This document shows, one piece after another, positions 44,346-50,167 of a stretch of DNA of 64,000 bases (the stretch's first letter is position 1; each line of letters starts with the position of its first letter). The stretch comes from Arthrobacter bussei. Lineage in GTDB: Bacteria; Actinomycetota; Actinomycetes; Actinomycetales; Micrococcaceae. The translations under genes and the position numbers were made by a program. The DNA lies in NCBI RefSeq assembly GCF_009377195.2, contig NZ_VJXX01000001.1:868001-932000 (forward strand). Reading direction: 5' to 3'. Under the pieces are notes generated by a model. It was not told where the DNA came from. It searched no databases and worked only from the letters and a program-made list of their open reading frames with translations.

Positions 44346-45563
44346 TCAGGCGGACGGGACAGCGAGGCGTCGCGCATCGATGGACGAGGACACCGCCGCA
44401 CCCAGGAGGAGCAGCCGCATAGTGCGCTCCGTCGCCTCGATGAGGAGCTGCTCGCCGTTGGCCACGGCGTCCTCGAGGTTCATGGGAATGGTCATGATGG
44501 AGGCGATGGCGTCGATGCCGATGTCATGCACGTCCGGCGCTCCCTTGCCCAGTGAACCGGCGAGGGCCAGGACGGGGACGCCTGCGAGCTGTGCCCGGTG
44601 GGCGATCACGGCCGGGACCTTGCCGTTGGGGGTCTGGAAGTCGATCGCGCCCTCTGCGGTGATCACGAGGTCGGTGCCGCGCATCAACGTCTCGAGATCC
44701 AGCCCTGCGAGTCCGCTGTCGATGAGGGCTTCGAAGCGCGGCACCAGCTTCGCTCCGAGGGCGGCGAGTCCGGCGCCGAGACCCCCCGAGGCTCCCGTGC
44801 CCGGACCCGACCGGTAGTCGACACCGGTGGCCAGGCCGTCCCGCCCGAGCACCCGGGCCCACTGCCGCATGGCCTTGGCGAGGTCCTCCACCTGCTGCGG
44901 GGAGGCTCCCTTCTGCGGCCCGAAGACCCGTGCCACGCCCTTCTTGCCGCAGAGGACGTTGTGCTGGTTGCAGGCCACGATCAGGGTGGCCTCCTGCACG
45001 GCGGGGTGCAGGTCGGAGAGGTCCAGCCGGTCCGCGTCGATGAGCGCGGAACCGCCGGAGGGGAGGACCCGGCCCCTGCTGTCGAGGACGCGGGCACCGA
45101 GGGCCTGCAGGGCACCGGCGCCGCCGTCGCTCGTCCCGGAATCGCCGCACCCGATGATGATCGTGCGCAGACCCTCGTCCAGCGCTGCGCGGATCAGCTC
45201 TCCCACCCCGTAGGTGGTGGTGGCGCCCGGGTCGCGCAGCGTGCGGGGGACGAGTCGGAGTCCGGCAGCGGCCGCCATCTCGACCACGGCCGTCCCCGCG
45301 GCACTGCCACCGAGCCTCGCGAAGTGGGACTCCACCGGTTCGCCCACCGGACCGGTGACGTTCACCGGTACCAGCACGCCGCCCGTTGCCGCTGCGAGGG
45401 TCGCCGCGGTGCCCTCACCGCCGTCGGCGATCGGCACCGCCGTGATCTGCACGCCGGGGAGGACGCGCCGGACGCCGGCGGCGATGGAGCGGGCCACCGT
45501 CTCGGCGCTCAGGGATTCCTTGAAGCCGCTCGGGGCGATGAGTACGCGCTGGGGAACTGACAT
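44346..45563 (-). CDS. Glycerate kinase (GlxK/GarK family)
   Basis: A 405-residue glycerate 2-kinase-type enzyme. PSGFKESLSAETVARSIAAG at the N-terminus, PIADGGEGTAATL, GCGDSGTSDGGAGALQALGA and DLVITAEGAIDFQTPNGKVPAVIA are the family blocks. It phosphorylates D-glycerate with ATP, leading to 2-phosphoglycerate in glyoxylate, glucarate or allantoin breakdown. The ATG at 45563 has GAGGAG eight bases upstream. It follows the SLC13 transporter gene by about 80 bases holding a 9-bp repeat, so import and phosphorylation are probably coupled. Confidence 0.92.
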   Translation of the reverse strand: MSVPQRVLIAPSGFKESLSAETVARSIAAGVRRVLPGVQITAVPIADGGEGTAATLAAATGGVLVPVNVTGPVGEPVESHFARLGGSAAGTAVVEMAAAAGLRLVPRTLRDPGATTTYGVGELIRAALDEGLRTIIIGCGDSGTSDGGAGALQALGARVLDSRGRVLPSGGSALIDADRLDLSDLHPAVQEATLIVACNQHNVLCGKKGVARVFGPQKGASPQQVEDLAKAMRQWARVLGRDGLATGVDYRSGPGTGASGGLGAGLAALGAKLVPRFEALIDSGLAGLDLETLMRGTDLVITAEGAIDFQTPNGKVPAVIAHRAQLAGVPVLALAGSLGKGAPDVHDIGIDAIASIMTIPMNLEDAVANGEQLLIEATERTMRLLLLGAAVSSSIDARRLAVPSA

Positions 45564-45644: not shown

Positions 45645-47177
45645 TCAGGGGAAGAGCGGGAGGCCCAGGAGCGGCCAGACGAGGAAGCTGAAGAGCAGCA
45701 CGAGGACCACGTTGACGGGTGCCAGGAGCGAGGACAGGCGGAGGAGATCCCTGGCCGCATAGGTCTCGACGTCGTCCACGGCGGCGAACATCGCCACCGG
45801 CTTGGCCGAGCTCGTGAGGGTGTGGCAGAACCCGGCTGCGGCGGTGGAGGCGAAGGCCGCGGCCATCGGGTCCACGCCGACGGCGGGAGACAGGGCGATC
45901 ACGATCGGGATCAGGACGGCCGAGCGCGCGGACCTGCTCTGGATGACCAGGTGCGCGAAGGTGGACAGCAGCACCACGAGGACCACGAAGAGGGGTGCCG
46001 CAGCGGCTCCCAGGGACCGGATCGGCTCCAGCACTCCGCCGGCCAGCCACTCGGCGGCACCCGTGGACACCAGGGCGTTGCCGAGGGCGAGGGTCGCGGC
46101 CATGAAGAGCAGGAGTGACCATGGCACGGACTTGAGCCCCTTGGCCAGTTCCACGGAGCCGTAGCTCGGCGAGGCCGCGATCAGGGCCCCGATCAGTGCC
46201 ACGAGGGCCGGGTCCAGCCCATGCAGGGGCTCGGTGCACCACAGCACGACGACGGCACCGAGCAGGAGGGCGGCCCGGGACTCGGCGACGGTCAGGGGCC
46301 CTGTGACGGGAGTGGCGGAATGCCGCTCGAGGTCCCTGGCACTGATGCCGAGGCGCTCGGTGCGATCAGCAGCCGAGGTGAACATGCGCAGTACGATCTC
46401 CGCGCAGACATGCGAGGCGACCAGCGCCAGCGGCAGGCCGAGCAGGAGCCAGGTGGCGAAGTCGAAGCTCTCCCCGGTGGCCGTCTCGAGGATCTGGCTC
46501 GTGATCAGGTGCGCTCCGGCACCGAGGAACGAGCCGACGGCCGAGAGCAGGATCACCGAGGGGAAGAGGATCGCCAGGGCCTTGATCAGGGCCTTCCGCT
46601 CCCCCAGGGCGTGCCGCAGGGCGAGGAAGACCGGCAGCGCCAGGGCGGCGCGGCCGGAGGTCGACGGGACCGCGAAGGTGGTGACCACGAGGGCGAGGGT
46701 GGCCAGGTGGGCGAGCTGCCGCGGCGTGGTCGCCCCCGCGATGATGAAGGCCGCGCCCCGATTGGCGAGCCCGGAGGCTCGTACCCCTGCCGCGATCACG
46801 AAGGCGGCCAGGAGCAGCCAGATCGTCTCCTCACCCAGGGTCGAGAAGAGCGAGGCGGTGTCCATCGTGCCCGTGAGGACCAGGACGGTCGCCGCCCCCA
46901 GTGCGATGTAGGTGTCATCGATGGCGGTGAAGATCCAGAACCACACGGCGAGGATGAAGACCATCAGCGTGACAGCCCCCTGCGGGGAGAGCCCCGTGCC
47001 GGGCTGCTGGGCGGCCATGATGACGCCCGCTGCGATCAGGAGGCCGACCAGTGCCGCAACTGCCCGGACGACGGTCTGGCGGACGGAGCCACCGGTAACC
47101 CCGGTGGACGACGGTGCGGCGCCGGGAGTACCCGTTCCCCGTGGCGGGGGCGTGGTGATGTGTTCGATCACGCTCAT
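45645..47177 (-). CDS. SLC13/DASS-type anion transporter
   Basis: A 510-residue membrane protein with about twelve helices. The two inverted halves carry SxS-type loop motifs (VPSTSGRAALALPVFLALRHALG in the first half and VIQSRSARSAVLIPIVIALSPAVGV in the second), as in sodium/dicarboxylate symporters. The hydrophilic N-terminus is about 38 residues long. ATG 47177 overlaps the response-regulator stop (ATGA). Genomic context with glycerate kinase points to glycerate or a related C3-C6 carboxylate as substrate; inference. Confidence 0.88.
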   Translation of the reverse strand: MSVIEHITTPPPRGTGTPGAAPSSTGVTGGSVRQTVVRAVAALVGLLIAAGVIMAAQQPGTGLSPQGAVTLMVFILAVWFWIFTAIDDTYIALGAATVLVLTGTMDTASLFSTLGEETIWLLLAAFVIAAGVRASGLANRGAAFIIAGATTPRQLAHLATLALVVTTFAVPSTSGRAALALPVFLALRHALGERKALIKALAILFPSVILLSAVGSFLGAGAHLITSQILETATGESFDFATWLLLGLPLALVASHVCAEIVLRMFTSAADRTERLGISARDLERHSATPVTGPLTVAESRAALLLGAVVVLWCTEPLHGLDPALVALIGALIAASPSYGSVELAKGLKSVPWSLLLFMAATLALGNALVSTGAAEWLAGGVLEPIRSLGAAAAPLFVVLVVLLSTFAHLVIQSRSARSAVLIPIVIALSPAVGVDPMAAAFASTAAAGFCHTLTSSAKPVAMFAAVDDVETYAARDLLRLSSLLAPVNVVLVLLFSFLVWPLLGLPLFP

Positions 47178-47833
47178 GGCAGCCGGTACCCCGCTCCCCT
47201 GATCGTCTCGATCCGCGAGGAGCCGATCTTGCCGCGGAGGGCCCGGACGTAGACGTCGACCACGTTCGACCCGGGATCGAAGTTGTAGCCCCATACATGG
47301 TTGAGCAGCTGCTCGCGGGAGATGACGCGGTCCGGATTGCGCAGGAAGACCTCCAGGATGGCGAATTCGCGCGCTGTCAGTTCGACGATCTCGTCGCCGA
47401 TCCGCACGCGCCGGGAGTGGAGGTCGAGGGACAGCCCGCCGTGCTCGATCACCGCGCCGCTCGTTGCGGGGATGTGGTCGGCGAGGCGCAGGCGGATCCG
47501 GGCGATGAGCTCGGCGACGTGGAACGGTTTCGTGACGTAGTCGTTCGCGCCGCCCTCCAGCCCTGCGACCGTGTCGAGCGCACTGTCCCTGGCGGTCAGG
47601 ACGATCACCGGTGTCGACACCCCCTCACCCCTGATCTGGGCGAGGACCTCGAAACCGTCCAGCAGTGGTAGCCCGATGTCGAGGATGATGAGATCGAAAC
47701 CGGACGCCCGTGCCAGGATGAGCGCGGTCTCGCCGTCGGCGGCGTGCTCGGTCGAGTAACCGGCAGCCTGCAGTCCCTTCTGCACGAAGGATGCGACGTG
47801 AGGATCGTCCTCGGCGACCAGGATGCGGCTCAT
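47174..47833 (-). CDS. OmpR-family response regulator
   Basis: A 219-residue regulator: receiver 1-118 (Glu/Asp8-10, phospho-acceptor Asp52 in ILDIGLPLLDG, Lys in TKPFH) and winged helix 125-219 (ELTAREFAILEVFLRNPDRVISREQLLNHVWG, then VVDVYVRALRGKIG). It is the natural partner of the upstream kinase, whose full reading frame would overlap this ATG by 4 bases. It overlaps the transporter gene by 4 bases, so it is probably the regulator of the transporter-kinase genes in its own operon. Confidence 0.93.
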   Translation of the reverse strand: MSRILVAEDDPHVASFVQKGLQAAGYSTEHAADGETALILARASGFDLIILDIGLPLLDGFEVLAQIRGEGVSTPVIVLTARDSALDTVAGLEGGANDYVTKPFHVAELIARIRLRLADHIPATSGAVIEHGGLSLDLHSRRVRIGDEIVELTAREFAILEVFLRNPDRVISREQLLNHVWGYNFDPGSNVVDVYVRALRGKIGSSRIETIRGAGYRLP

Positions 47834-48036
47834 GGTGCTCCTTGCGGTGTCGTGCTCCCGATGACGGGGAGCGAAGCGGTGATGGGCGTCGGCTCGTGGT
47901 GCCCCGGCGCGCCGTTGCCGGCCGCCCGGACCATGGGTGGTCCGAGTGGACGGGACGGCGGCTCCACCGCCGGCCGCACCGTGGCGTTCTCCGGCGCGGG
48001 AAGCAGCAGCCCGAACGTCGCGCCGTTGCCTGGTTA
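47830..48036 (-). pseudogene. Detached C-terminal end of the sensor kinase, behind an in-frame TAA
   Basis: After the kinase stop TAA (48036-48034) the same frame stays open for 67 codons. It reads PGNGATFGLLLPAPEN at once, the expected last strand (PGxGATF) of a HATPase domain. It then continues with a Pro-rich tail and ends at a TGA that forms ATGA with the response-regulator start. The intact kinase would be about 558 residues. One base change (for example from CAA, GAA or AAA) explains the stop. Confidence 0.8.
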
Positions 48037-49506
48037 GCTGCGCACCCAGGCAGAGCCGGCGTGGCCGTCGGCGATCGCCCGGACGATCGCCAGACCGAGA
48101 CCGGCGCCCCCACGCTGACCGGCACTGCGCCTGTCGGCCGGCAGGGAGTTGGCCGAGCCGTGCTCGAAGCGTTCGAAGATCACGGCAGCTTCCTCCTCGG
48201 TGACACCCGGCCCGGCGTCCTCGACCCAGATCCGCAGCTGCCGGTCAGGGCCGGCGCCCTCGTACGCGGAACCGATCCTGACGTCGGAATCTTCGGGGGT
48301 GTACTGCACGGCGTTCGCCCCGAGTTGGAGCACTGCCTGGGTGATCCGTTGACTGTCGAGCGCGACAGCGCCCTCCGCGACCTCCATGAGCAGCCAACGC
48401 CGGTCACCGAGGGCCTGCATCTTCGCTTCGAGGTCCAGCATCAGGACGGCGACGTCCACCGGTGCCGCCTGGACGAAGTCAGGCCGTTCGGCCTTCACCA
48501 GCAGCAGGAGGTCGGACACGATCCGCGCCATACGGGAGAGCTCGCCGTCGACGAGTGCCAGCGTGGCGGCGCGGCTCCGGGGATCATCGTCGATGAGCTC
48601 GAGGTGGCCGCGGATCACGGTGATCGGTGTCCGCAGCTCATGGCTGGCGTCGTCGATGAAGTTCCGCTGCGTCACGTAGGCGTGCTCGAGCCGGTCCAGC
48701 ATGTCGTTGAAGGTGGAGGCGAGGGCTGCGACGTCGTCCCGGCCCTGCACCGGCACGCGCGCCGTGAGATCGGACTCGGTGATCTCGGTGGCCACGCGCC
48801 GCACGTCCCTGATCGGCCGCAGGATCTGGCCGGCGACCAGCCACGCGATCCCCGCGGTGAACAGCAGTCCCCCGAGCGCGACGAAGAAGATCACGGTGAC
48901 GGTCTCCTGGACCTGTGCGTACCCGCCTCGGGTGAAGGCGGCGGTGATGAGTGTCCCGTCCTCGGTACCGGCCTCGACCTCCACCTTCCCCCAGCGCATG
49001 GTGCCGGCGGCCGTCTCCCGGACACCGGAGGCGGACGGATCCTCGCGGAGGTCCTGCAGCAGGTCCGTGTCGGCGGACAGCCGGTAGGTCTCGTCGTTGC
49101 CGCGTCCGGATGATCCGAGATAGAGCACCTCGTCACCGGTGACGCCGAGGATCACCTCCCCGGCCGACGCGTTCTGGCGCGACAGGTACCGCTCGAGCAG
49201 CTCACCGACGGACGTGTACGGCTGCGCGGTCAAGGGGTCCACAGCCTCACCGGCGAACGTGGTGAACTCCTGGATCTCCTGCACCACGTCGTCGTTCGCA
49301 TCCCTGTCCACACCCGCGATCAGCAGTGACCGGACGGTGACGAGCAGGGCGATCAGCGCGAGGGCCGTGGTGAGGACGATCCATCCCACGATGCGCCACC
49401 GCGCCGATACCGGCGATCCACCGAGGGGTTTGGTGACCCGCCCGGCCGGGTTCGGATCCGGTACCGGGGCGGACGCCGGCCCGCTACCGCCCACATCGGT
49501 GGACAT
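48034..49506 (-). CDS. Sensor histidine kinase, apparently truncated by a premature stop
   Basis: A 490-residue kinase as it stands. TM1 is at about 38-62, an extracellular sensor region of ~115 residues, TM2 at ~180-203, HAMP at ~204-256, HisKA with phospho-His in DDASHELRTPITVIRGHLEL, and HATPase with LQLGANAVQYTP (N-box variant: Gly-Ala instead of Asn-Leu), VEDAGPGVTEEE and GGAGLGLAIVRAIA. It stops at SAWVRS, just before the PGNGATF strand that completes the ATPase domain. Its start overlaps the stop of the Pro-rich protein gene (TGATG). Whether it is active, read through or dead is open. Confidence 0.88.
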   Translation of the reverse strand: MSTDVGGSGPASAPVPDPNPAGRVTKPLGGSPVSARWRIVGWIVLTTALALIALLVTVRSLLIAGVDRDANDDVVQEIQEFTTFAGEAVDPLTAQPYTSVGELLERYLSRQNASAGEVILGVTGDEVLYLGSSGRGNDETYRLSADTDLLQDLREDPSASGVRETAAGTMRWGKVEVEAGTEDGTLITAAFTRGGYAQVQETVTVIFFVALGGLLFTAGIAWLVAGQILRPIRDVRRVATEITESDLTARVPVQGRDDVAALASTFNDMLDRLEHAYVTQRNFIDDASHELRTPITVIRGHLELIDDDPRSRAATLALVDGELSRMARIVSDLLLLVKAERPDFVQAAPVDVAVLMLDLEAKMQALGDRRWLLMEVAEGAVALDSQRITQAVLQLGANAVQYTPEDSDVRIGSAYEGAGPDRQLRIWVEDAGPGVTEEEAAVIFERFEHGSANSLPADRRSAGQRGGAGLGLAIVRAIADGHAGSAWVRS

Positions 49507-50021
49507 CAGTCCTCCCCGGTCGTGGCTGCGTCGTCGTCGATCTCCTCAGGGGCGTTCCCGTCCTCCGCGCCGTCATCGCCGTCCCCGGCTCCGTCGTCGT
49601 CGTCGTCGCCGAGCACCTGGCGTTCTACCAGGCCGGGAGTCTCCTGTAGCGGAGGAGCCACGGGGGCGGGAGCCGGTGCGGGAGCCGGTGCGGGAGCCGG
49701 TGCGGGGTCCGGTGCGGGGTCCGGTGAGATCGGTGCCGGGCTCGGCTGAGGTGCGGCGGACGAGTCCGGAGCCGGGGCAGGAGGAGGGGTGGACGGTATC
49801 GCCGGCGCGGCCGCAGGTGGTTCGGATGCGGGCGGCGTCGCGGCGGCGCCGTCGTCCACCCCGGAACCCGCTCCGGTGGTCCGGGCGAGATCGACCACCA
49901 CCGTGCGCGGCTCCACCGGCGGCACCTCCGCGGGTCGGCTCAGGGCCTGGCTTCCCACGGCGAGGAGGGCCGGTACGGCGAGCAGCCCTCCTGCAGCGAG
50001 CACGCGGGGGATGAGGGACAT
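49506..50021 (-). CDS. Anchored Pro/Ala-rich protein with acidic C-terminus, operon partner of the sensor kinase
   Basis: A 171-residue protein with an N-terminal hydrophobic segment (PRVLAAGGLLAVPALLAVGSQAL, signal peptide or anchor). A Pro/Ala/Ser-rich region with a run of alternating Pro-Ala dipeptides follows (from ~90 to 125), then a short conserved-looking PPLQETPGLVERQVLG and an acidic tail (DDDDDGAGDGDDGAEDG). No family recognised. ATG 50021 has AGGAGT upstream. Its stop overlaps the kinase start by 1 base, so it is translated together with the kinase. The tail could bind cations. Confidence 0.7.
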   Translation of the reverse strand: MSLIPRVLAAGGLLAVPALLAVGSQALSRPAEVPPVEPRTVVVDLARTTGAGSGVDDGAAATPPASEPPAAAPAIPSTPPPAPAPDSSAAPQPSPAPISPDPAPDPAPAPAPAPAPAPAPVAPPLQETPGLVERQVLGDDDDDGAGDGDDGAEDGNAPEEIDDDAATTGED

Positions 50022-50139
50022 CGGGACTCCTGGGTCATGGTGCGTCGGGACGTGCCGGCGACGGTCCCGATGCGGACGATCATCCGCAGGAGGCACTTCG
50101 TCGCCATCCCCTACTGTCGCGTACTCCCGTGATACCTCC

Positions 50140-50167
50140 ATGAAGCGCCGATGAGGATTTCTTCATC
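50140..50167. promoter_or_regulatory. Candidate response-regulator box upstream of the kinase operon
   Basis: ATGA occurs at 50140 and 50151, 11 bases apart, as expected for tandem OmpR-type sites, and GATGA occurs inverted at 50163-50167. Position is about 120 bases before the first gene of the operon. Confidence 0.3.

Follow-up and report, generated by a model that had tools for sequence, protein, structure and literature searches.

A conserved sensor histidine kinase gene of Arthrobacter bussei with an in-frame TAA, probably a very recent nonsense mutation

The sensor kinase gene of a two-component system in Arthrobacter bussei is interrupted by an in-frame TAA, which we think is probably a very recent single-base nonsense mutation in the lineage of this strain, leaving a truncated and probably kinase-dead sensor. 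The gene lies in the 64,000-nucleotide stretch of DNA analysed here (the window), where a small gene, the kinase, an OmpR-type regulator, a Na_sulph_symp/CitMHS-type permease and a glycerate kinase follow one another, all on the minus strand. The TAA, at 48036-48034 of the minus strand, comes directly after SAWVRS and is codon 491 counted from the ATG at 49506. Behind it, 67 sense codons (48033-47833) open with PGNGATFGLLLPAP and run to a TGA at 47832-47830 that overlaps the ATG of the regulator at 47833-47831 (ATGA). These coordinates agree with those of an initial annotation of the region, and the ATGA coupling that it reported elsewhere in the operon is indeed present at the regulator/permease junction (47177), the junction upstream of the kinase being TGATG.

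Table 1. Features of the kinase gene and its neighbours, in window coordinates
Feature	Coordinates	Strand	Basis
Sensor histidine kinase ORF, 490 aa to the premature TAA; HAMP, HisKA and incomplete HATPase_c	48034..49506	-	ORF and Pfam
In-frame TAA; glutamate codon in 7/7 orthologues	48034..48036	-	Orthologue alignment
14 codons PGNGATFGLLLPAP, end of HATPase_c with the last beta-strand, now behind the stop	47992..48033	-	Alignment, Pfam, model
Variable 53-codon tail of the kinase frame; constraint weaker than in the core in the genus	47833..47991	-	Substitution counts
TGA at the original end of the kinase frame; shares bases with the regulator ATG (ATGA)	47830..47832	-	Sequence
AAGGAG, likely ribosome-binding site of the regulator; purine-rich in 8/8 aligned sequences	47838..47843	-	Sequence, inference
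OmpR-type response regulator (Response_reg and Trans_reg_C), intact	47174..47833	-	Pfam, alignment
Na_sulph_symp/CitMHS-type permease, intact, ATGA-coupled to the regulator; start set by the Leaf234 match	45645..47177	-	Pfam, alignment
Glycerate kinase family protein, intact	44346..45563	-	Pfam, alignment
Small proline- and acid-rich protein, no Pfam match at E <= 0.01; TGATG junction to the kinase	49506..50141	-	Pfam

A search of 38 genomes of the genus Arthrobacter returned a match to the kinase at E <= 1e-150 in eight, its own included. The seven orthologues are 85-95% identical to the window kinase, the nearest being that of Arthrobacter sp. Leaf234 (G020; 95%), followed by those of Arthrobacter sp. 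RIT-PI-e (G032; 90%) and A. agilis UMCV2 (G009; 86%). The alignment with the closest kinases that the initial annotation suggested, as a way to see which residue TAA replaces, gives a glutamate codon in all seven, one substitution away from TAA. Each orthologue then continues through PGxGAxFGLLLPAP (S for A in G030 and G019) to the same ATGA junction, and the opposite outcome, an orthologue ending at SAWVRS, was looked for and found in none of the seven. Counted from the site, itself included, to the junction, five orthologues have 68 codons and the other two 73, even though the tail of the frame (47833-47991) changes fast between species.

We extended the comparison to a wider family of 30 homologous loci (L002-L030 and L052, the seven orthologues included; six further match places and the distant L034-L051 lie outside this count). 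Every one of them continues at least 18 codons beyond the aligned end, so none stops at the SAWVRS point. A strict G-x-G-x(1,2)-F pattern occurs in 26 of the 30, and the four loci without it (L013, L018, L025 and L030) run on through a comparable stretch. Parallel truncation was therefore found neither among the seven orthologues nor among the 30 loci that include them. Two candidates for a parallel stop were set aside: in L015 the TAA sits in the sensor part, at another site, and in L017 the aligned stretch already opens with the TGA. L015 itself (L015:1501-2820, minus strand; G029:C17) is a distant kinase homologue, 39% identical, from another genome of the genus, and apart from this TAA its frame is open through the kinase domains. 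Within its own genome the interrupted kinase has no second close copy, the gene itself being the single match at E <= 1e-60.

The length of the open frame behind the stop is uninformative. Counted over all six frames of the window, 513 of 1718 stops (30%) have at least 67 open codons behind them, as do 14 of the 39 gene ends common to the window and Leaf234 (49 matched Leaf234 gene models minus six disrupted ones, g1, g50, and the end-differing g16 and g35), and in a GC-rich window with so many equally open stops we dropped this argument. The frame had initially been described as 204 bases preserved so exactly as to argue for a very recent nonsense mutation, an assembly error or functional readthrough; strong conservation is confined to its first 14 codons, and the other 53 form the faster-changing tail. 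What does mark the sequence behind the stop as non-random is its match to seven orthologues.

Pfam HATPase_c, the catalytic, ATP-binding part of such kinases according to an extract of PMC3582566, covers profile positions 2-110 of 111 in the Leaf234 protein (71.9 bits) and only 2-95 of 111 in the window protein (58.2 bits, still far above the cut-off of 26.4), so that the domain is incomplete and lacks its last strand; HAMP (54.1 bits) and HisKA (54.6 bits) are complete and over cut-off. An AlphaFold model of the catalytic part of the Leaf234 kinase (7-sequence alignment, mean pLDDT 78, numbering shifted by 274) puts the last two strands at residues 485-490 (SAWVRS) and 496-503, with block pLDDT of 83 and 90. 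The turn that joins these two strands is where the stop lies; the protein therefore ends with the strand SAWVRS and is without the one that should follow. Two earlier proposals, that PGNGATFGLLLPAP is the conserved end of the HATPase domain and that the truncated kinase lacks the last ATPase strand, are borne out by the Pfam extents and the model, and the first by the orthologues as well. In domain order, HAMP-HisKA-HATPase_c, and in its partner regulator with Response_reg and Trans_reg_C, the kinase is of the EnvZ/OmpR and VicK/VicR kind, and the best solved relative by sequence of the Leaf234 orthologue is 4i5s (VicK/CovS-like). Unlike kinases of that kind, the window kinase has its last HATPase_c strand cut off by a stop, and does so alone among the eight compared genomes.

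Substitution counts, polarised with G032 and G059, indicate how long the stop could have been present. In the core before the stop, the A. bussei branch carries 14 synonymous and 4 nonsynonymous changes and the Leaf234 branch 19 and 6; in the variable N-terminal stretch the corresponding figures are 3 and 2, and 2 and 2. Behind the stop, neither branch has any change in the conserved 14 codons, and the tail shows 2 synonymous and 0 nonsynonymous changes on the A. bussei branch and 1 and 5 on that of Leaf234, small counts in both cases. Relaxed selection is thus not seen on the A. bussei branch, either before the stop or, with those small counts, behind it. Had the whole branch been free of constraint, about 38 nonsynonymous core changes would be predicted (14 x 1002/366), and because the observed four fall so far below this, the stop is either very recent or not real; taken together, these counts leave little time for decay. 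Pairwise dN/dS in the core is 0.05-0.10 in the pairs counted, and in the tail it is 0.85 between the window and Leaf234, 1.25 between G009 and G012, and 0.24-0.49 in five other pairs. The gene resembles a recent nonsense pseudogene or truncated allele in having a single in-frame stop in a conserved, otherwise intact frame with intact orthologues; it differs from one in showing no decay so far, with kinase and regulator still constrained on their own branch.

The alternative that survives best, though we consider it unlikely, is that the TAA is a one-base error of the sequencing or assembly consensus and that the living strain has an intact kinase. The sequence comes from a single assembly, the one genome of this species in the comparison, the stop differs by one substitution from what all seven orthologues have there, and a lack of decay before and behind it is what an error would show. 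Against this, broken domains are few across the genome: a stop lies inside 1 of 26 HATPase_c matches, namely this kinase, 0 of 95 ABC_tran matches (150 of 158 candidates scored) and 2 of 54 MFS_1 matches. For comparison, five relatives yield 132 HATPase_c matches, with no stop among the matches listed. The two MFS_1 matches (G000:C18:34853-36025 and G000:C29:54875-55405) have one in-frame stop each, TAG and TGA. Private changes in the kinase gene are not in excess either, since the window sequence has six, the stop included, at core columns invariant in the seven others, which have 3 to 44, numbers that partly reflect distance. The site is also interior to a 1.73-Mb contig.

The immediate surroundings likewise speak against an error-prone consensus. 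We scanned the window with 54 automatic gene models from Leaf234, of which 49 matched (g1 and g50 only in part, at the window edges, and g10 and g11 in part, at their N-terminal ends) and six, the kinase among them, showed a stop or a split. The other five are shadow ORFs, 5' model extensions or an intergenic place. In g6 and g46 the model reaches too far in the 5' direction, and the stops fall in this extension, ahead of where the gene probably starts; g15 is antisense to the glycerate kinase; g27 has its stop and split in a first half antisense to an acyltransferase, its second half being the next, open ORF; and the split of g49 comes from 2 bases of length difference near position 1808, which lies just beyond the edge of ORF 1810-2040 and does not touch ORF 1290-1739. 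The good-looking base quality and the few broken genes therefore favour a real mutation over an error. What we see is best read as nothing out of the ordinary: a nonsense mutation that hit a two-component sensor recently or, with lower probability, a single wrong base. Of the three explanations in the initial annotation, recent nonsense mutation is the best supported, assembly error comes behind it as the less likely choice, and functional readthrough has found little in its favour.

The preferred explanation, a very recent one-base nonsense mutation in an otherwise conserved HisKA-type sensor kinase, would have the following consequences. Translation would end after residue 490, giving a protein without the last beta-strand of the ATP-binding domain and without the variable tail. 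To judge from the family, an ATP-binding domain of this form would probably fold or bind ATP poorly, and the 490-residue protein has probably lost kinase activity. Without autophosphorylation the system may be stuck in its off state or depend on other phosphate donors, and the intact DHp domain might retain some phosphatase activity. Ribosomes halted at the TAA would stop short of the ATGA junction, so that the regulator would have to rely on its own AAGGAG at 47843-47838; with that site present it need not depend wholly on coupling. Some loss of expression or polarity in the coupled genes downstream is conceivable, and would be softened by the regulator's own ribosome-binding site.

Downstream of the kinase, the regulator, permease and glycerate kinase genes are intact and constrained, with dN/dS of 0.06-0.10 against Leaf234. 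Upstream, the small protein at 49506-50141 is rich in proline and has a run of acidic residues (DDDDDGAGDGDDGAEDG). Three relatives also have it close to the kinase, though less well conserved, with 78% identity to that of Leaf234 and 58-61% to the two others; it is possibly an accessory exported protein of the two-component system.

Much less probable than a consensus error is an adaptive allele, in which the clipped protein, its DHp domain retained, would keep the system switched off as a regulator that is biased towards phosphatase activity or independent of kinase activity. Complete HAMP and HisKA domains in a constrained gene are compatible with this, and there are partial precedents: an extract of PMC7005713 describes phosphatase activity in vitro, at pH 8.0, for HK853 without its CA domain, and one of PMC7028121 presents RocA as kinase-like but able to function with no kinase activity. 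The first of these also states, to the opposite effect, that the phosphatase becomes more active with nucleotide in the CA domain; moreover, the 30 loci, the seven orthologues included, hold no parallel truncation, and we see no positive sign of selection. That the 490-residue protein is a working, selected sensor without a kinase arm, its DHp serving as a phosphatase or a signal-gated sink for the regulator, strikes us as quite improbable.

We find it very hard to credit that the TAA is read through at a useful level, so that full-length kinase is still made. The frame behind the stop is intact and undecayed, which a recent origin explains equally well. A U after a stop codon strengthens termination, and the base next after this TAA is C. 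In yeast, C at this +4 position raises readthrough of all three stops, as an extract of PMC5289835 reports, but data cited in the same extract place readthrough lowest at UAA. The stop is moreover present in one of eight species and in none of the seven orthologues, and so no conserved recoding is involved. A change of the genetic code that makes TAA a sense codon does not fit, since TAA is an ordinary terminator here and closes 2 of the 39 genes at the point where the Leaf234 counterpart ends too.

A literature search over titles and abstract openings returned nothing on this kinase gene. As a recent nonsense mutation the finding matters little in general. For this strain, it means that the two-component system beside the Na_sulph_symp/CitMHS-type permease is probably off or altered, and it serves as a warning to annotators that the regulator may have no working kinase here. 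Were the truncated protein to prove active, it would be informative about the extent of CA domain that a sensor kinase requires.
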